Source: an uncultured Poribacteria bacterium
Lineage (GTDB): Bacteria > Poribacteria > WGA-4E > WGA-3G
Assembly (NCBI GenBank): GCA_951828515.1
Contig: OX639992.1
Location: forward strand, 2,458,217 to 2,522,216
Reading direction: 5' to 3'
Length of the DNA: 64,000 bases
A program made the translations under genes and the position numbers. Below, piece after piece: positions 4,443 to 49,297 of the stretch. The notes under the pieces were generated by a model. The model ran no database searches, had not been told where the DNA came from, and was given only the letters and a program-made list of their open reading frames with translations. Position 1 is the stretch's first letter, and each line of letters opens with the position of its first letter.

Positions 4443-4519
4443 GTTGTAGGTATCGGTTGTCGGTTCTCAGTTATCGGTTAAAGAAGTTTTCAAGACACTT
4501 TAAACGTTTCATTTTATAC

Positions 4520-4609
4520 AGGACTTACGCAAAATCAGTAAATTCCATCTATTTGGACGCATTCGGTGCGGTTGGGAAACCGCACCTACCAGGGAAGTGC
4601 GTAAGTCCT
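4520..4609. repeat. 90-bp palindromic element (AGGACTTACGCA ends), copy a
   Basis: The ends AGGACTTACGCA and TGCGTAAGTCCT are a perfect 12-bp inverted repeat. The middle holds a REP hairpin (GTGCGGTT-loop-AACCGCAC followed by CTACC). Near-identical units occur at 8056-8144 and 14409-14498, with a divergent one at 19549-19667. It carries no coding potential. Confidence 0.85.
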
Positions 4610-4755
4610 ATTATAACCCAAGTTGCCACCTATTCATAGACATAGCACCCCTACGGGGTGCGGTTGCTTAAATATGCCATTTTCTATAGATATAGCACCC
4701 CTACGGGGTGAAAAAGCACCCGAAAATCTACTTAAAACGTTCAAAACTCATTAGT
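4566..4755 (+). repeat. 190-bp direct repeat, left copy
   Basis: The sequence is repeated, apparently without change, at 5033-5222 (offset 467). It contains the REP half of the 90-bp element and two short palindromes AGCACCCCTACGGGGTG (4646 and 4690 region). The two copies flank MITE copy A. Confidence 0.85.
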
Positions 4756-5032: not shown

Positions 5033-5222
5033 GTGCGGTTGGGAAACCGCACCTACCAGGGAAGTGCGTAAGTCCTATTATAACCCAAGTTGCCACCTAT
5101 TCATAGACATAGCACCCCTACGGGGTGCGGTTGCTTAAATATGCCATTTTCTATAGATATAGCACCCCTACGGGGTGAAAAAGCACCCGAAAATCTACTT
5201 AAAACGTTCAAAACTCATTAGT
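5033..5222 (+). repeat. 190-bp direct repeat, right copy
   Basis: This is an apparently exact copy of 4566-4755 on the far side of MITE copy A. It lacks the left arm of the 90-bp element, so the duplication starts inside that element's REP. Confidence 0.85.
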
Positions 5223-6764: not shown

Positions 6765-8039
6765 CTACACAAGTGCGTTCAGGATTGGGAGCAGGGTACG
6801 TATAGTTGGGACATCTCGAAATGTGAAGCCGAACTGCGAGAAATACACAGATGCTGCGAGTGCATCCGCGATAAGTGGTTCTTTTTCCAACTCCTTTGAG
6901 ACACCGAGGATAAGGGACACATCCGTCTGTTCAGCGAGGGTGTTGAGTCGCGCAATGAGGTGTCCTTGATGCCATGGATGAAATAATTCAATGGCGGTCT
7001 CTACACCGCTTTTGTGAACGAGTTGATAGTCTGGAAAGCAGTAGAAGTCCCCCGGTAAAGGGATGAACTGACTTCCGGGACGGATCTGCCAGTCATCGGT
7101 TTTGTTACGGAGCATCGTCTGGAAGAGTTGGATATCTTCAGGGATATAGGCGAGGAACTGTCGTGAAATCGGTTTAATGCCACACGACTCATTGAGCGAT
7201 AACCCATAACGCTGTTTATTTCGGAACTGGATCTCCGCTGTAAGTTCCCATTTGGGTTGATGCAGCACCGCAAGGAAAAAATTCGCCAAATTCATGCCGT
7301 ACCGTTTTGTTTTATAAAAGAGATTGAGCGGTCCGTCCACCGTAATCTGATAGACTTCGTTGTTTTCGGTTTTCTCTTTCTGGATTGTGGAGAGGAGTTG
7401 GTTGAATCTGAGGTACTTGAACAGTTGACGAAGTTCGGCTGTCATAGAGTCAGCGAGTTTTAGCGTGAGACTGTTGCTATGGAGAAGCAACCCTTGAACC
7501 TGTGCGGTGTTATAACGGTGGAGCAAATGTTCAGCAGAAAGCGTCTTGAATGCCAAAACGGGTTGGCAACTCGGTAGGTCTGCATAGAGTTTAGCAGTCA
7601 GATCCGCCACTTCTATCGGAGCACCCTCTGGTCGCGATTCTTCTGTCGTCCCTAACACTTTACATTGTCCTGCAAGCCCACACGCGGCTTGCGTATAATC
7701 TGTGTAATTTTCAAACTGTTCTTGTGAAAGCAAGCGGCTCGTCTCCGTGAAGAGTTTTTGTCGAAACGCAATCAGTTCCTCGTTGGGTGTAGTATCAAAC
7801 TCTGTCCGATCTAACAGGAGTTTTTCGAGTCCGCGTTTGATTATGAGCGGTCCCGCTGTGCTATCAATGATGTGCTTGCTGGTCTCTAAGAGCGTCGCGC
7901 GTGGCTTATCTGGTGATTCTTCAAAAACTGCGATCAATTGCTCAGCGATTGCCAATAATTTCGTATCGGTAGGCTTTACAAATTGTGGGTGAATTTGCCC
8001 GTTTTGAGTTTTGTAACGGAGTAGGTCTTTGGTGAGCAT
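6765..8039 (-). CDS. DUF790 / Bax1-like nuclease, partner of XPB helicase
   Basis: This 424-residue protein opens MLTKDLLRYKTQNGQIHPQF, the hallmark of the DUF790 (Bax1) family. In archaea Bax1 is a structure-specific endonuclease that binds XPB helicase in nucleotide excision repair. The C-terminal PD-(D/E)XK-like core is visible as DFYCFPDYQLVHKSG (Asp) followed by VETAIELFHPWHQ (Glu), about residues 333-362. An arginine (LIARL) stands where archaeal forms typically carry the catalytic lysine. Bacterial members may use this ELFH-x-WH variant normally, but I cannot confirm that. The helicase gene lies immediately upstream on the same strand, supporting a two-gene repair unit. The 83-bp gap between them is mostly a 90-bp palindromic element. 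Confidence 0.82.
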   Translation of the reverse strand: MLTKDLLRYKTQNGQIHPQFVKPTDTKLLAIAEQLIAVFEESPDKPRATLLETSKHIIDSTAGPLIIKRGLEKLLLDRTEFDTTPNEELIAFRQKLFTETSRLLSQEQFENYTDYTQAACGLAGQCKVLGTTEESRPEGAPIEVADLTAKLYADLPSCQPVLAFKTLSAEHLLHRYNTAQVQGLLLHSNSLTLKLADSMTAELRQLFKYLRFNQLLSTIQKEKTENNEVYQITVDGPLNLFYKTKRYGMNLANFFLAVLHQPKWELTAEIQFRNKQRYGLSLNESCGIKPISRQFLAYIPEDIQLFQTMLRNKTDDWQIRPGSQFIPLPGDFYCFPDYQLVHKSGVETAIELFHPWHQGHLIARLNTLAEQTDVSLILGVSKELEKEPLIADALAASVYFSQFGFTFRDVPTIRTLLPILNALV

Positions 8040-8055
8040 TTTTTAATTATACCTT

Positions 8056-8144
8056 AGGACTTACGCACTTCCCCGGTAGGTGCGGTTTCCAACCGCACCG
8101 AATGCGTCCGAATAGATGAAATTTAGTGATTTTGCGTAAGTCCT
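8056..8144. repeat. 90-bp palindromic element (AGGACTTACGCA ends), copy b
   Basis: This 89-bp unit has the same 12-bp inverted ends and central REP as 4520-4609. One arm lies inside the XPB helicase reading frame and supplies its last six codons and the stop (8123-8140). The rest sits between the helicase and DUF790 genes. Confidence 0.88.
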
Positions 8145-9532
8145 GTATACCTTTTAGAAGACTGGTAAGCGTCGTGTTGTCTGCGTCGCTTGTTAACAAA
8201 ATGTTCGCTGGTCTGTTTGGAGATGAGTTCGTAAAGCACTGCCTGTTTGCCTTCCTGCTTGCGGAGGATGCGCCCTAATCGTTGAACGTGTTCTCGGACG
8301 CTTCCACTTCCTGAGACGATGATGCCAACATTCGCTTCCGGGACATCTACACCTTCGTTTAGGACTTTTGAGGTGACGAGGATAGAATAGGTGCCATCGC
8401 GAAACTTGTTCAAAAAATCATTGCGTTCCTTGGGTTTCGTCTGATGCGTTAGCACCGGTAGCAAGAAACGCGTGCCAAGCTGATACGCCGTATCGTTGTC
8501 CTGTGTAAAAATGAGGATCCGATCGCCACTGTGCCTTTGAATGAGTTTCCAGACCCATTCCTGTTTTGTAGTTGAAGCAAAACTGAGTTGCTTCTGGGCG
8601 AGATACGCTTTAAAGACGGCACGTCCTTCCTCCGTTCGTGAGGTTTTCCAGAGAAAATGGTGCCAGCCGCGGGGTGACCCCATATTAATGCGCTCCTGTT
8701 TGAGGAAGTCTAAATAGATGCGGCGGGCTTCTTCGTACTGAACCCGTTCTGTGTCTTCCATGTCAACCGCTATGGTGACAACCCGATACTCGGAGAGCGT
8801 TTTCCCAGAGAGTTCTTGTACCTTTATATCGTAACAGGGTTCGCCAACGAGCGCATAGAGTCGGCTCTCTTTCCCATCAACGCGTTCCGGTGTGGCTGTC
8901 AATCCCAATCGAAAAGGCGCAATGCTGCTGATTGCTGCATACTGATATTGATCGCTCGGTAGGTGGTGGCATTCGTCGAAAATGGCGAAGCCGAATCGAT
9001 TTCCGTAATATGGCGCGTGCATGACAGCGGATTGATACGTCGTTACAGTGAGATCTTTCAGCTCGTGATAGCCACCCCCATAAAGTCCTACCTCTTGTCC
9101 GAAGTGTTCTTTCAACACGGAGCACCACTGGTGCATTAAGTCGATTGTTGGCACATGTATGAGTGTCGGACGCTGCGTGTCAGCGATAAGCAGAATCGCG
9201 ATAAAGGTTTTACCCGCACCGGTGGGGAGAGTCACTACGCCGCGTTTGCCGTTGGCGTGCCATGCGTCTATTGCCTCGGTCTGGTAAGGATAAGGAGACA
9301 CTGTTTTTTCATCCGTGAAGGGGCTGACTGTGAACTCCCGTGCTGTGTCCTGATACGCGATGTCGTGTGCGCGTAGTTGCGAAACGATATGCCGGTAGCG
9401 GTAGGCGGGTGCACGGAAGGTGAGTGTGCGTTCGTCCCAGAGGAGATCTGGTAAGCGTGTTTGGAGTGTCTCTGGGACGTTCTGTAGGATGAGGGTGCCT
9501 TTGTCAAAATTGATTTTAAGTGGCGAGGACAT
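8123..9532 (-). CDS. XPB-type DEAD/DEAH SF2 helicase
   Basis: This 469-residue helicase has the archaeal XPB layout. An N-terminal damage-recognition-like domain (about residues 1-75) precedes Walker A LPTGAGKT (102-109), motif II DECHH (186-190) and motif III LTATPERVDGKE. An insertion of thumb type (VQYEEARRIYLDFLKQERINMGSPRGWHHFL) follows, then RecA domain 2 with ILIFTQDNDTAYQL, TSKVLNEGVDVP and motif VI HVQRLGRILRKQ. It is a 3'-5' ATP-dependent DNA helicase or opener that, with the adjacent Bax1-like protein, would act in excision repair. The last residues, GLTQNH, and the stop codon come from the arm of a 90-bp repeat element, so the native C-terminus was replaced or extended by that insertion. 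Confidence 0.92.
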   Translation of the reverse strand: MSSPLKINFDKGTLILQNVPETLQTRLPDLLWDERTLTFRAPAYRYRHIVSQLRAHDIAYQDTAREFTVSPFTDEKTVSPYPYQTEAIDAWHANGKRGVVTLPTGAGKTFIAILLIADTQRPTLIHVPTIDLMHQWCSVLKEHFGQEVGLYGGGYHELKDLTVTTYQSAVMHAPYYGNRFGFAIFDECHHLPSDQYQYAAISSIAPFRLGLTATPERVDGKESRLYALVGEPCYDIKVQELSGKTLSEYRVVTIAVDMEDTERVQYEEARRIYLDFLKQERINMGSPRGWHHFLWKTSRTEEGRAVFKAYLAQKQLSFASTTKQEWVWKLIQRHSGDRILIFTQDNDTAYQLGTRFLLPVLTHQTKPKERNDFLNKFRDGTYSILVTSKVLNEGVDVPEANVGIIVSGSGSVREHVQRLGRILRKQEGKQAVLYELISKQTSEHFVNKRRRQHDAYQSSKRYTGLTQNH

Positions 9533-9598: not shown

Positions 9599-9732
9599 CC
9601 TATGGACATTCAAGTGTTTTTTATAGTGGATCCTGCAATTACTTTTACACCAAACTCGGTGCGGTTAGAAACCGCACCTACCGGGGGTGGGCAGATATTT
9701 TCGGGCCTATGGACATTCAAGTGTTTTTTAAT
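9599..9732. repeat. REP-containing insert flanked by 24-26-bp direct repeats
   Basis: CCTATGGACATTCAAGTG followed by a T-run and TA occurs at 9599 and again at 9706. Between the copies lies a TATAGTGGATCC arm like the TATAGTA elements, then a REP hairpin (GGTGCGGTT-AGA-AACCGCACC, 9657-9677 region) with the CTACC tail. The layout looks like an insert with a long target duplication, or a slipped duplication. It occupies the divergent spacer between the helicase and dehydrogenase genes. Confidence 0.7.
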
Positions 9733-10826: not shown

Positions 10827-13800
10827 CTATGTTTTCGGCAGCGTATACATACTCCGCCGGACCTTCACAACCTCGCCGGCATCCACAAGCCGCTTGAGTT
10901 CATTTTTGATCGGGCTCGGATGTCCCGTAACAGCGGCAACGATTTCCGCTGTTTTTCTCTCACCCCCGGTAGCCAGTGCTGCGCGGATTTGCTCGTGCAA
11001 GGGAACCCGTAGGGGTCTTCCGCCCCTCATTTTTTGCAATATACGGTTTGCCTGCCGCGGTGAGCACCCTAAAACCCGCTCCACTTCTTTTCTCTTGGCG
11101 TCAGGGGTGAGTGCCTCACGTTCCGTTTCAAACCGTTGGCGGATAGCGATCGCCTCAGCAAGTGTATCGAGTCCACCGGCGACCTCAAGATCCTCCCAGT
11201 CGAAGAGGTGCGTCTCGGGTCTGTCAGTGATGTTCGGCAGCCGCACGCCAGTGATCAACACAACCTTTTTGCCGCTCCTGCGGTTCAACGTGATACACTC
11301 AAAAGCCTCTGCGAGCATGCTAACCATTTCCTGTTCATAAACGCTCTGGACGCGTGCGTCTGTATAAGTGTTCGACCCCGTTTCCGTCTCATAAGAGAGC
11401 GGTTGCTCGTGGTTGCCAAACAAAATCTGCGCGCGCCGCCAAATTAAACCGTGAGGTCGTTCGGGTGCGCCGAACATCCAAATGATGTCCGCCTCTTGGA
11501 AAGCCGCCTCCAACGTTTCTGCATTTTGGAAAGGAATGTCCCGGTTTATCAACTCTTGGAAATGCCTCAGGAAACAGATGTTCTCCTTTTCTGCGATATC
11601 CAGCAACTGTTTGATTATTTTTGAATCGGTGAGAATCGCATGCTTAACCTTCGGATCCCTCTCAATTTCCGCAAGGATACCGAGAAGAAACCGCTGCCCC
11701 GTTTTAGACGTGCCAATAACATCCCAGGTGTTATCGTAATCTAAAATTGTCTCTCGTGGATAGATGCCTGTGCGAATCTGAAAGACCTGGTTTCCAGCGA
11801 GCCATGCTGTCGGTTCGGTGCGAATCACTTCAATTTCTTCATCTGGGAACGCCTTGTGTAAGTGTCCTTCAGAGAGGGTTGAGGAGACGACCAAAAGCCG
11901 TTTGACGCTCGGATGTAGCACCGGTGGCACCCAGAAATGCAGCTCCTCTCCATTCCAGCGAATTGGTGCGTCAGCATCCCGCGTGTAATGTGCCAAGAAA
12001 CGCTTCAACTGATGCCAAAATGTCCAGTGTGGATCCGAATAGACTATCCGGAATTTTTGAAGGTCCTGGACAGTTTTCGTATCCAAGATACCCAACCCGA
12101 TGGCTTCTGCTATTTTCATTGGGATCTTCATGTCTTCGTTCATCACGAAGGTGTCGAGTCGAAAAAAAGGCAACCCCATTGCCTTGAGTCTATCTGCGGC
12201 GTTATCATCTAAAGGAATGTGAGCGGAGGCACCCCCCTCAAACTCGATACGCAGGTGTGCTAATTCCTTGCCGGTGTCGGTATCAACAACCCCGTCTGTC
12301 ACGACCTTGCCTTGGACATTGATTTGGCACATTTGTCGGATGAGTTCTGCTTCCTGCCATTCAAACGACTGTATCGCTGCGCGGACACCTTTGACGGCAT
12401 CACCATGGCGTTTCCCTTTAATGTCTAAGGCATTCAGTAAGGTTTTAGCAAAGTTCCCTAAGGCACTTCCTTGCCAGTTGACCCCCCATTTCTCCAACGT
12501 GTTTATTAATATCATACATTTGGGAAACACTTCAGGTACTGTTCTGACATGAACGATACAAAGTGGGTCTGTTTCACCGCCCGGCTCGAGCATTGCCTCG
12601 ACGATTTCGGCGTATTCTGGATCGAAAAACAGTTGCGGGATTGCCGATATCTGTGCCGTGGCGCCCTGTAATGCGAGCGGTTGCGATAGATACCCGCGGT
12701 CTTGACACTCGGTATAAACAGGGCACTGTGGGCAGATAGTTTCACTCGGATTGCCCCCTTTTTCCACGAGTGCATCACACCGCTCGGGATCCTCACAGAC
12801 GTTCCCGTGTTGAAAAGGGGATGCCATACGCACGTCAACAGGTATATCTTTCACCTGTTCCCAGAGGTGCATTCGATCTTTCCAGCGGGCGACCGATGGC
12901 ACGTTTCGTGCCTCAAAGAGGCGTTCTGCTTCTTCTGCTAACTTCGGGGTTGGGGTGTTTAAGCAGATAGCCCCGCTAGTGAGGAGAGAGGATTCTATTT
13001 CGTAGTTGTTCCCCACCCCTGTCTCGGAGACCATAAGTCCAACAACCCGTGCTGGACTCTGAAAAACACGGTGCATCTGAATCGCATTTTTTTCAACCGT
13101 CTCCTGAACCGTCTCGCTGGGTTCCGCCTTCTCAAGGATGGCGGGTGGACGTTTTATTGAGAGTGGGCTCAGCCCTTCCCGCACTGCGAGCACCTTCTCG
13201 GACACGGGCGAACCCGTAGCGGGTAACGGTGGCAGAATACCCGTATCGTCCCAGACATCTGTGATGGGTGTGTCAGTCGTGGGTATCCCAACGTCCGGCG
13301 TAGCTGCCCGCACCCAGACGATTTCCTTGTCTTCCCAGAGTGACACTTCTACAGCGTCACTCTCTTTGGCGCCGGATGGGGTCCAGTGGTGAAAACCGTT
13401 ATCTTGGCGGACGTAAGAGAAGCCGCGCTTCATAAACGCCTCTTTCGCGAGATCCAGTTGATACGAACCCAGACGTAATGGCGCAGCGGGGATCGTCGGT
13501 ATCTGGTTTATTTCTTCAGGGGCGGGTTGGTGAAGCACGGCGCGGAGGGCATCAACGGGTGCAAAGAGTGCCTCTTTGACAATGACAGGCGGGTCTAAGA
13601 GATTGCCGAGCAGAATCTCATAGCGGGCATCCCAACGACTATATCCCTTTTCTCCAAGGATTTCGAGATACACGTCGCGTTGCTGTGGGGTTCCCGCAGT
13701 CGGTGTATTGTTATAGATATACAACTTCTGGGGTTCGGTATCTGGATGCAGGTAACCTGGGACTCTACACGAAAAGCGGAGTCCCCCCGATTTTGAGAGC

Positions 13801-14255
13801 GTTAAGAGTGGGTTCGCTACACTACTGACAAGTGCCTCAATACACGCTAAAACCGCATCGGGTGCGGCACAGAGTGCCTGATACGTAAAATTCAGATCGT
13901 GCCATCGTGCGCCATAGCGTTCTGAAGGGATACCCGTATACACCTGAATGCCCCATGATGTGTTCCAGCGTCTGATGTCCCAGTCTTCCTTCCGGGTGCG
14001 CCTCGTGAATAACTCACCCCCAAAATGCCTCGGCCCGCGGTCATTATAAGGGGCGTGCCCTGTCGGCATAAATGAGATGTCCGCCGCCTCGAGATCATCG
14101 AGCAGCATAGGGTACTTGCGCCCACAATAAACCCTGTACTGATAAAAATGACCCTTGGTGTACATTGAAGGGATTGCCACTGTCTTGTGTTGCCGAAGTG
14201 GCTTGGCGTGCCGTTGATGGCAGCGTTGAATAATGTTTTTTAGGGGGTTCATCAT
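10827..14255 (-). CDS. Large helicase-like protein with degenerate ATPase motifs and a C-terminal winged helix
   Basis: I do not recognise this gene's family with certainty. The start at 14255 (MMNPLKN) is preferred over 14273 because AGAGGA lies six bases before it, giving 1142 residues. The N-terminal part (about 1-230) has TGIPSERYGARWHDLNFTY and LTLSKSGGLRFSCRVPGYLH, possibly primase/polymerase-like. The middle has SETGVGNNYEIES near residue 410, where a helicase Walker A (GxGKT) would be expected. A cysteine group follows near 490-520 (CEDPERC...CPQCPVYTEC), reminiscent of Fe-S or zinc sites. VHVRTVPEVF near 570 stands where a DExx motif might be. SSTLSEGHLHKAF near 792 looks like motif III. 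FGAPERPHGLIWRRAQILFG and QANRILQKM then lead to a winged helix (about 1085-1142). It may be an inactive replicase or regulator from a mobile element. Confidence 0.6.
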   Translation of the reverse strand: MMNPLKNIIQRCHQRHAKPLRQHKTVAIPSMYTKGHFYQYRVYCGRKYPMLLDDLEAADISFMPTGHAPYNDRGPRHFGGELFTRRTRKEDWDIRRWNTSWGIQVYTGIPSERYGARWHDLNFTYQALCAAPDAVLACIEALVSSVANPLLTLSKSGGLRFSCRVPGYLHPDTEPQKLYIYNNTPTAGTPQQRDVYLEILGEKGYSRWDARYEILLGNLLDPPVIVKEALFAPVDALRAVLHQPAPEEINQIPTIPAAPLRLGSYQLDLAKEAFMKRGFSYVRQDNGFHHWTPSGAKESDAVEVSLWEDKEIVWVRAATPDVGIPTTDTPITDVWDDTGILPPLPATGSPVSEKVLAVREGLSPLSIKRPPAILEKAEPSETVQETVEKNAIQMHRVFQSPARVVGLMVSETGVGNNYEIESSLLTSGAICLNTPTPKLAEEAERLFEARNVPSVARWKDRMHLWEQVKDIPVDVRMASPFQHGNVCEDPERCDALVEKGGNPSETICPQCPVYTECQDRGYLSQPLALQGATAQISAIPQLFFDPEYAEIVEAMLEPGGETDPLCIVHVRTVPEVFPKCMILINTLEKWGVNWQGSALGNFAKTLLNALDIKGKRHGDAVKGVRAAIQSFEWQEAELIRQMCQINVQGKVVTDGVVDTDTGKELAHLRIEFEGGASAHIPLDDNAADRLKAMGLPFFRLDTFVMNEDMKIPMKIAEAIGLGILDTKTVQDLQKFRIVYSDPHWTFWHQLKRFLAHYTRDADAPIRWNGEELHFWVPPVLHPSVKRLLVVSSTLSEGHLHKAFPDEEIEVIRTEPTAWLAGNQVFQIRTGIYPRETILDYDNTWDVIGTSKTGQRFLLGILAEIERDPKVKHAILTDSKIIKQLLDIAEKENICFLRHFQELINRDIPFQNAETLEAAFQEADIIWMFGAPERPHGLIWRRAQILFGNHEQPLSYETETGSNTYTDARVQSVYEQEMVSMLAEAFECITLNRRSGKKVVLITGVRLPNITDRPETHLFDWEDLEVAGGLDTLAEAIAIRQRFETEREALTPDAKRKEVERVLGCSPRQANRILQKMRGGRPLRVPLHEQIRAALATGGERKTAEIVAAVTGHPSPIKNELKRLVDAGEVVKVRRSMYTLPKT

Positions 14256-14408
14256 CAGGTTTCCTCTAACCAAGGCATTTGGAAAGAACTTTATGCCCGT
14301 CTACCTCCGCAACCTAAAGATAGCGGATTTGACGGGGCGGGTGCTAAAACCAAATGCGAAGTTCTCCAATCTTAGGAAATTTGATTTTTTCAAAAGTGTT
14401 ACTTAATC

Positions 14409-19204: not shown

Positions 19205-19228
19205 GTAGGTGCGGTTTGCAACCGCACC
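19205..19228 (+). repeat. 3' REP of the 15740 gene
   Basis: GTAG followed by the hairpin GTGCGGTT-loop-AACCGCAC, starting 19 nt after the stop codon. The stop itself lies in AAGTAGGTGCG, which repeats the REP head GTAGGTGCG. Confidence 0.85.
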
Positions 19229-24248: not shown

Positions 24249-24272
24249 GTAGGTGCGGTTTGCAACCGCACC
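24249..24272 (+). repeat. 3' REP of the 20067 gene
   Basis: GTAG plus hairpin GTGCGGTT-loop-AACCGCAC begins 19 nt after the stop. The stop context AAGTAGGT again imitates the REP head. Confidence 0.85.
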
Positions 24273-24493: not shown

Positions 24494-24517
24494 GGTGCGG
24501 TTTGCAACCGCACCTAC
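24494..24517 (-). repeat. REP, minus orientation
   Basis: The hairpin GTGCGGTT-loop-AACCGCAC is followed by CTAC, so the GTAG tetranucleotide is on the minus strand. The spacer between the two REPs (24273-24493) holds only short GCCCTTACAGGGC-like palindromes. Confidence 0.8.
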
Positions 24518-26009: not shown

Positions 26010-26463
26010 GTGCGTCCCCCCGGTCCCGGTAGGTGCGCCCCCCGGTCCCGGTAGGTGCGGTTTGCAACCGCACCGGTCTCGGCACCCCAGACCCGGTAGG
26101 TGCGGTTTGCAACCGCACCGGGTATCGCTAGGAAATTACCGAGTTAAATTCTGAAATGTCATGAAACCGCCCCGGATTCTGGGGGATCGGTTGTTTTGAA
26201 GTCTTTGTGGTTTTTGGTTAAAAGTCGGGCGCAGTTTCAAACAGTGCCTACCAGTCTTGGGGTGCCGAAGTATCCGTGGTTTTTGGTAAAAGTCCGGTGC
26301 GGTTGCAAACCGCACCTACCGGGTCTGGGGTAGTGGTTTTTGGTAAAAGTCGGGCGCAGTTTCAAACAGTGAAGAAACACCCCAGCAAAAACCCTACCGG
26401 GACCGGGGTATCCGAAGTCTTTGTGGTTTTTGGTAAAAGTCGGGCGCGGTTTGCAACCGCGCC
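26010..26463. repeat. REP cluster on the left of the RAYT gene
   Basis: After the stop (AAGTAGGTGCG) come two truncated REP heads (GTAGGTGCG at 26012-26036, about 22-nt period). Complete REPs follow at 26051-26074 (+), 26096-26119 (+) and 26296-26319 (-), with a GGCGCGGTT...AACCGCGCC variant at 26443-26463. In between are repeats of GTTTTTGGTAAAAGTCGGGCGCAG with CAGTTTCAAACAGTG. No gene fits this spacer. Confidence 0.8.
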
Positions 26464-26527
26464 GGACTCGGTTCGCATTTGAATCTTCCTCGAACCGCGC
26501 CAACAGCCGCCGATGAAAGGAACCTAC

Positions 26528-27004
26528 ATGAACACTTCGCCAAAATACCGGAGTCAAGACTTACGCAAAGCCAGATGTTCCATACCCGGGGCATATTACC
26601 ACATCGTAATCGTCACGCATCGGCGGCAGCCGATCTTAGCGAACGACAACGCAGCACCAATTATTTTTAAGACCTTTGATTGGTTAGAGACCCAAAACCG
26701 TTTAGAATGGACATGTATCATGGTGATGCCCGACCATGTGCACACGGTCATCAAACTTGAAGAAGGACAGACGCTTGCGAAGATGCTGCATTCGTTGAAA
26801 CGGTTCTCTGCCCGTGAGATTAACAAACACTTATCGCAAAGCGGTCCCTTCTGGCAGAAAGGTTACACCGATTGGAACATTCGGACGGAAACAAGATTGA
26901 ACGACACCCTCCGCTATTGTTATATGAACCCTGTCAGGAAAAGACTGGTAGAACGCGCGAGGGAATACCCGTATTGGCGGTGTAAATATGAGATGGATTG
27001 GTAA
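26528..27004 (+). CDS. REP-associated tyrosine transposase (RAYT, Y1 HUH family)
   Basis: This 158-residue protein starts at 26528, because AAAGGA lies six bases upstream. The earlier in-frame ATG (26513) overlaps that ribosome-binding site. The HUH motif is MPDHVHTVIKL (about residues 70-80). The catalytic Tyr lies in the helix DTLRYCYMNPVRKRLV (about residues 131-146), matching the Y-x-x-x-NPV signature of IS200-like RAYTs. FWQKGYTDWNIR precedes it, as in the family. These enzymes cut and join single-stranded DNA at REP hairpins preceded by GTAG-type tetranucleotides. Here GTAG-headed REPs flank the gene on both sides (26051-26319 and 27049-27293), the typical arrangement. Codons 8-12 (CAAGACTTACGCAAA) resemble the end of the 90-bp repeat family. 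Confidence 0.9.
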   Translation: MNTSPKYRSQDLRKARCSIPGAYYHIVIVTHRRQPILANDNAAPIIFKTFDWLETQNRLEWTCIMVMPDHVHTVIKLEEGQTLAKMLHSLKRFSAREINKHLSQSGPFWQKGYTDWNIRTETRLNDTLRYCYMNPVRKRLVERAREYPYWRCKYEMDW

Positions 27005-27048
27005 TAAGGTTTCGGTTCGGTTTGATGAGACTCGTCCCCCCGGACCCG

Positions 27049-27293
27049 GTAGGTGCGGTTTGCAACCGCACCGGATATCATTCGGAAATTACCGAATTAA
27101 ATTCTGAAACTTCATGTAACCGCACCGGGCGTAGTTATAGGATTATCGGAATATGTGTTTCCCGAGGTCTGGTAGGTTCGGTTTGATGAGGTATCATAAA
27201 ATATGTCGGTAGTTCTATACCCGTATCCGGTGCGGTTGCAAACCGCACCTACCGGGTTTGGGGGGAACCGGTGCGGTTGCAAACCGCACCTAC
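27049..27293. repeat. REP cluster on the right of the RAYT gene
   Basis: REPs lie at 27049-27072 (+), 27229-27252 (-) and 27270-27293 (-). They are followed by GGGTTTTGGGAAGTTTGG tandem copies to about 27370. The mixture of orientations mirrors the left side. Confidence 0.82.
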
Positions 27294-37226: not shown

Positions 37227-37250
37227 GTAGGTGCGGTTTTCAACCGCACC
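37227..37250 (+). repeat. 3' REP of the 27585 gene
   Basis: GTAG plus hairpin GTGCGGTT-loop-AACCGCAC begins 19 nt after the stop (AAATAGGTGCG). ATAGGTGTCAATTTA follows, as after the 15740 and 44690 genes. Confidence 0.85.
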
Positions 37251-37607: not shown

Positions 37608-37840
37608 GGTGCGGTTTGCAACCGCACCGGATAGAGTTATGAGCTTACCGCCCTATTTTATGACCGGCGCAGTTTCAAACAGCGCCTACCGGGGCGAGGG
37701 AGCAGAAGTCTCTATGGGTTTTGGTTAAAAGTCGGGCGCAGTTTCAAACAGTGCCTACCGGGGCGGGGGAGCAGAAGTCTTGATGGTTTTTTGGTAAAAG
37801 TCCGGCGCAGTTTCAAACAGCGCCTACCGGGGCGGGGGAA
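37608..37840. repeat. REP plus tandem GCGCAGTTTCAAACAGCGCC repeats
   Basis: A REP-like hairpin lacking GTAG (37608-37628) is followed by three GCGCAGTTTCAAACAGYGCCTACCGGGG units, roughly 65-70 bp apart, near 37672, 37735 and 37804. They are separated by AGCAGAAGTCT...GGTTTTTGG. The unit is a degenerate REP variant that also occurs near 19770, 26230, 26350 and 49470. Confidence 0.7.
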
Positions 37841-48582: not shown

Positions 48583-48606
48583 GTAGGTGCGGTTTTCAAC
48601 CGCACC
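48583..48606 (+). repeat. 3' REP of the 44690 gene
   Basis: GTAG plus hairpin GTGCGGTT-loop-AACCGCAC begins 21 nt after the stop (AAGTAGGTACG). ATAGGTGTCAATTTA follows. A second hairpin without GTAG is at 48988-49008. Confidence 0.83.
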
Positions 48607-48645
48607 ATAGGTGTCAATTTAAGAAAAATATGTCCGTCGTGGCAG

Positions 48646-48892
48646 CGTAGGTTGGGTAGAACGGATTCCATCAAATCCCGAAAAAGTCATAAAAAAATGA
48701 AGTCTCGCCAGACACGCTATATCCATCAGATACCGAGTGAAACCCAACGCATTTGTTGTGAAGTTCGCGGGATTCTAACGCTATAAAGTTGGGTTTCCCT
48801 ATGGTCTTGAGAGTATATCAGCGTCTATCAGATTTCAGGTGTGTTTGGAACACCGATGTTCGCCTTCTCAAGACCGTTCAACCCAACCTACG
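48646..48892. mobile_element. 247-bp MITE family, copy C
   Basis: The inverted ends CGTAGGTTGGGTAGAACGG and CCGTTCAACCCAACCTACG have one mismatch. The interior and right flank are very close to copy B, including the same length. No protein is encoded. Confidence 0.82.
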
Positions 48893-49297
48893 GGCGCACT
48901 GTCCTTGGGTTAAGCCCGGTTCGGTTAGGAAACCGAACCTACCGGTCTTGGTCTGCGACAGTTGTTTTTTCTAAAATTGACACCCATGGTGCGGTTTTCA
49001 ACCGCACCGAACTCAGCCCCCGGTCCCGGTAGGTGCGGTTTGATGAAGATTAAGAATTCAATCGGGTAATGTAGGTGTTCATTGTCTGAATCAGGATTTT
49101 CAGGATTCAAGGATTTTCAGGATTGGATGTCCTTGTTGACTGAAATCTGCCCTCATAGAATTACCGAAATATTTATTGAAACTTCATGTAACCGCACCGG
49201 ATAGGGTTATGGGCTTACCGCTCTATTTTATGAAACGTCAGGAGCCTGCCCTGGATTCTGGGGGATCGGTTGTTTTGAAGTCTTTGTGGTTTTTGGT

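Follow-up and report, generated by a model that had tools for sequence, protein, structure and literature searches.

In a 64,000-nucleotide stretch of the genome of an uncultured Poribacteria bacterium (contig OX639992.1, positions 2,458,217 to 2,522,216; G000:C1:2458217-2522216 of the focal genome G000; hereafter the window), the gene for an XPB-type helicase runs into a mobile repeat. We are almost certain that this repeat is a 91-bp miniature inverted-repeat transposable element (MITE), probably mobilised by an IS701-type system, that inserted in the last codons of XPB and now supplies the last seven residues and the stop codon of the protein. The element, its target-site duplication, the corresponding empty site in a close relative and the new C-terminus are all present in the DNA, and full-length insertion sequences (ISs) of related genomes carry the same ends. 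That an IS701-type transposase did the moving is what we infer. The features of the junction, in window coordinates, are as follows.

8055 to 8145, minus strand: non-autonomous 91-bp MITE, C end at 8145 and T end at 8055, with perfect 12-bp inverted ends
8056 to 8067, plus strand: terminal inverted repeat of the T end, AGGACTTACGCA, exact inverse of TGCGTAAGTCCT
8133 to 8144, minus strand: terminal inverted repeat of the C end, TGCGTAAGTCCT, read by XPB, exact inverse of AGGACTTACGCA
8048 to 8054, plus strand: target-site duplication TATACCT, copy adjoining bax1 (AGGTATA on the XPB strand)
8146 to 8152, plus strand: target-site duplication TATACCT, copy within the XPB frame, a direct repeat just outside the element
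8079 to 8099, no strand assigned: internal GC-rich hairpin GGTGCGGTT-TCC-AACCGCACC, found elsewhere in the window also without these ends
8123 to 8145, minus strand: portion of the XPB frame within the element (two bases of a Thr codon, GLTQNH and TAA)
8123 to 9532, minus strand: XPB-type helicase, 469 aa (Pfam XPB_DRD, ResIII, ERCC3_RAD25_C)
6765 to 8039, minus strand: gene downstream of XPB, for a DUF790 protein, the family to which the Bax1 partner nuclease belongs (PF05626, E 1.5e-63)

Translation of the focal DNA gives a helicase that ends in SSKRYTGLTQNH, that is, KRY followed by TGLTQNH and the stop. The codons inside the repeat read GGA CTT ACG CAA AAT CAC TAA, and the frame is closed 20 bases inside the element. 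In the closest relative, G030, whose XPB is 96% identical, the site is empty and XPB ends in SKRYN, 3 bases ahead of the ATG of bax1. Removal of the element and of one 7-bp copy from the focal sequence leaves TCTTCTAAAAGGTATAATTAAAAAATGCTCACC, which is the G030 junction with one base further upstream differing; therefore, a single Asn has been replaced by Thr-Gly-Leu-Thr-Gln-Asn-His. The gap between xpb and bax1 went from the 3 bp seen in G030 to 83 bp. The leader AAGGTATAATTAAAAAATG, common before bax1 in many orthologs with small changes, is restored by the duplicated 7 bp together with the last base of the element (A).

The element has the properties of a MITE: it is 91 bp long, carries no transposase gene, has 12-bp perfect terminal inverted repeats and is flanked by a 7-bp duplication. 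Comparison of the flanks between copies sets the mobile unit one base wider on each side than the inverted arms. An initial annotation of this stretch had already attributed the C-terminus and stop of the helicase to a palindromic repeat, and the codons for GLTQNH and TAA do lie inside the element. Its palindrome and inverted arm also hold, while their sizes are to be corrected: the unit is 91 bp rather than 90, and the perfect arm is 12 bp rather than 18. Similarly, seven residues rather than six depend on the element, because the Thr codon ACA spans the boundary, with one base from the duplication and two from the element. The direct repeat TATACCT had been overlooked.

We picture the event as follows. 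In the ancestral state, the end of XPB shared bases with the leader of the bax1-type gene that follows, and an IS701-type transposase (transpos_IS701_2) would have moved the 91-bp MITE in trans into the last XPB codons, a staggered cut producing the 7-bp duplication. The frame then ran into the C end of the element, exchanging Asn-stop for Thr-Gly-Leu-Thr-Gln-Asn-His-stop, and the duplicated 7 bp with the last A of the element regenerated the bax1 leader. DUF790 is the family of archaeal Bax1, the partner nuclease of XPB (PMC7293015).

Comparison with homologs, which had been proposed as the check on this reading, bears it out. We compared 34 XPB orthologs of the same genus that lack this insert; none of them ends in GLTQNH, and the nearest relative preserves the exact pre-insertion site. 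GLTQN is likewise absent from a second, partially overlapping set of 45 named XPB loci, 43 of them from Poribacteria metagenome-assembled genomes and the other two titled Calditrichaeota and proteobacterium. Beyond the conserved RRQH-AY block, the tails of the 34 orthologs vary in length and sequence, and across the 33 loci that contain bax1 (it is missing from one) the gap between the genes ranges from 3 to 343 bp. Judged from sequence, the effect on XPB would be small, with one residue lost and seven gained in a tail that is variable among orthologs, and the change is probably near neutral. A mobile palindrome has thus rewritten a gene end, as first claimed, with a smaller effect than that wording implied. 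Two other loci deserve mention. In L067 (G019, another species), a larger and different element with the same ends lies within the xpb-bax1 gap, leaving the XPB stop untouched; it is a separate insertion. Among the 45 named loci, L206 is the only one with such ends within 450 bp downstream of XPB.

The family to which the element belongs is abundant and mobile. Allowing at most one mismatch, the 12-mer arm occurs 11 times in the window, where shuffles predict 0.22, and exact matches number 211 in the 5.85-Mb genome compared with 0 for the reversed control. Inward-facing pairs of exact arms span 88-99 bp at 18 places in the focal genome and 117-133 bp at 39, with several different cores between identical ends. 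From chosen loci, and requiring at most two mismatches over both arms, we collected 77 distinct elements, which are not all the copies. Direct repeats flank 53 of these (5 bp in 43, 6 bp in 7 and 7 bp in 3), while a 5-7 bp repeat appears in about 1.1% of the controls in which left and right flanks were swapped between copies. An identical twin of the focal element (91/91) lies in L138, near G000:C1:5526498, with its own 5-bp duplication; no frame of at least 25 codons enters its C end. The duplications, this twin and the full-length ISs with the same ends all support its mobility. Copies are dispersed and the site is empty in G030, as expected of a MITE. G000 has 18 occurrences of the 23-bp pattern that marks the C end of this core and G030 has one, with none in 36 other same-genus genomes; on these counts, this core is a recent burst local to the lineage.

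The likely parents are found in relatives. We found the 13-mer YAGGACTTACGCA in 70 of the 72 genomes of the order that were examined, frequently with copy numbers in the tens to hundreds; outside the order it occurs in 12 of 73 genomes, once in each. Contig G048:C52 holds a 1088-bp IS bounded by the same ends, whose transposase scores 405.5 bits against NCBIfam transpos_IS701_2 (NF049921; cut-off 250) and matches PF13546 and PF01609 above cut-off, identifying it as an IS701-type DDE enzyme. At E <=1e-30, relatives of this transposase were detected in 28 of 87 genomes, none of them G000 or G030. Inspection of 35 transposase loci gave 25 distinct copies with an end pair, 9 without one and 1 duplicate. 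Among the 25 end-bounded copies, 21 are 1042-1100 bp long and 4 are 629-643 bp, and 12 have duplications of 5-7 bp, in line with the direct repeats of IS701 members (4-5 bp, in some 4-9 bp; PMC8024623). The four short elements (L174, L175, L176 and L180) have both ends and partial transposases; they look like deletion derivatives and are possible intermediates between IS and MITE. Two transposase relatives of about 30% identity (L182 and L183) carry a variant end, TAGGAGTTACGCA, which suggests that ends and enzyme change together. In 16 of the 25 copies, the transposase stops at the TAA of its own right terminal repeat (L158, L160, L161, L163-L168, L173, L182, L183, L186, L187, L269 and L270).

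Some observations weigh against this explanation. No 5-7 bp duplication was found at 24 of the 77 copies, and the likeness between MITE and full IS is limited to the outer bases (17 identical ones at the left end of L144). In addition, neither the focal genome nor G030 yielded an intact IS701-type transposase, fragments and weak matches being all that was found, and for this reason the source of the enzyme is only inferred. The best fragment in the focal genome is a C-terminal piece of 39 bits beside an intact end. The ends common to MITE and autonomous element are those of the ~1.09-kb IS of relatives, which was not found intact in the focal genome. Candidates for an autonomous copy there were rejected: the 20 PF01609 loci found were all scanned for ends and showed no end pair, 28 loci with seemingly unpaired ends had their partners, where found, at MITE distance, and a candidate pair 1.58 kb apart proved to be two different copies surrounding a host gene.

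A survey of gene ends covered the 52 of the 77 elements with enough flank (>=450 bp). Two convincing genes end inside an element, XPB and one that we take, on a reading of its sequence, to be nnrD-like, and both end in TGLTQNH.

L125 640-2361 (G000:C1:2549042-2550760), minus strand: nnrD-like gene, 573 aa, ending TGLTQNH, where it reads into another copy of this MITE

This second element has a mutated end, no clean duplication and an extra partial end alongside. Relatives of the gene end otherwise at all 7 readable loci of 8, the eighth (L257) giving no motif match. Because of the mutated end and the missing clean duplication, the nnrD-like gene is the weaker evidence. The remaining frames in the survey we judged likely spurious.

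The shared ending raises the question of whether the family has been selected or built to end genes, its ends being portable stop cassettes. Two genes with TGLTQNH and the 16 of 25 IS copies whose transposase stops in the right terminal repeat would favour this idea. However, 402 of the 462 frames that enter the 77 elements stop inside them, compared with 405 +/- 6 in dinucleotide shuffles, and 195 stop within 10 codons of entry, compared with 194 +/- 9. Since stops are no more frequent than in shuffles, nothing suggests that gene termination is a built-in property of the elements. That only two of 52 elements lie at a convincing gene end also counts against the idea, which the shuffle control disfavours and which we rejected as highly improbable.

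It is equally important to consider what else the repeat could be. A conserved regulatory or structural RNA, such as a terminator or a processing hairpin, could be native between xpb and bax1 and overlap the helicase end by design; indeed, the element sits between two functionally linked genes and its RNA fold is far better than that of shuffles (z -5.15). However, such a fold is a consequence of the inverted ends, the element has no Rfam match, no promoter-like or terminator-like site was found in it, and it is absent at this position from G030 and the other 33 orthologs. The empty site refutes an RNA element as the ancestral feature, and we rejected this explanation as very unlikely. The high copy number, the palindrome and the internal GC-rich hairpin could also evoke a repetitive extragenic palindrome (REP) spread by an IS200-type enzyme, the REP-associated tyrosine transposase (RAYT), rather than a DDE element. 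REP sequences of this kind are palindromes without target duplication and are tied to a RAYT gene. Here, in contrast, the terminal repeats are perfect and the target is duplicated over 5-7 bp, and the ISs that carry the same ends encode an enzyme of DDE type; no search for a RAYT gene was made. We regard this origin as extremely improbable, and an IS701-type-mobilised MITE remains the explanation that we favour.

The core itself has a wider distribution than the MITE. We counted 18 copies of the hairpin GGTGCGGTT..AACCGCACC in the window, and only 3 belong to elements having these ends; it is found at 9658-9678, 19208-19228, 24252-24272, 24494-24514, 26054-27290, 37230-37250, 37608-37628 and 48586-49008. 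Several of the cores without ends are paired ~240-400 bp apart and adjoin ATTGACAC motifs; these may be a separate repeat family. At another MITE of the window (4519-4610), the right half and its flank appear to be repeated ~467 bp further on (4578-4700 versus 5045-5170), with an unpaired end at 5065. Also in the window, an open reading frame of 1148 aa (10827-14273, minus strand) has no Pfam match at E 0.001.

Our work cleanly resolves the states before and after an insertion into a DNA-repair gene from a candidate phylum: the empty site and the duplication are exact, and the new C-terminus is readable. Moreover, a likely parent family can now be named for a very abundant Poribacteria repeat. 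The results also carry a warning for annotation, as a GLTQNH tail common to unrelated proteins is transposon sequence and not homology. We could further speculate, with more doubt than confidence, that one IS701-type end has been kept across the whole Poribacteria order and loaded with different cores, including the stand-alone hairpin. It might have spread without an intact transposase, presumably via transient enzymes, and repeatedly reshaped gene ends and operon spacings, the xpb-bax1 gap having been hit separately in two species. In the open-access literature searched, the string GGACTTACGCA had only an unrelated occurrence, and the matches listed for insertion sequences and MITEs made no mention of Poribacteria.

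Gene ends supplied by MITEs are already known in other bacteria; the Poribacteria case is new, cleanly documented and ordinary. According to one account of Coxiella burnetii (PMC5896051), QMITE1 and QMITE2 overlap the C-terminal ends of the functional ubiB, pntAA, mutT, nagZ, recN and ruvB, and EnhC owes 33 residues of its C-terminus to one insert; that protein C-termini are tolerant is remarked on there. Like the window element, the QMITEs described are MITEs with terminal and direct repeats at gene C-terminal ends, although they are longer and have other repeats, and for the window element the empty site of a near relative and the exact 7-bp duplication orient the event. Rickettsia palindromic elements, as presented in a MITE review (PMC10969869), are likewise small palindromic repeats that enter protein-coding genes. 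These are in-frame fusions that keep the host frame open, whereas the window element closes the XPB frame once seven residues have been added. The enterobacterial RU-1, RU-2 and RU-3 are reported as small mobile repeats in annotated genes, contributing residues through in-frame fusion, with other repeats (103-168 bp) and in other hosts (PMC2759123). Finally, the IS701 family (NF049921; ISGka1 and ISGka2, PMC8024623), as described, matches the full-length relatives in transposase family and duplication size, while the window element lacks a transposase gene and has less than one-tenth of the length of the IS.
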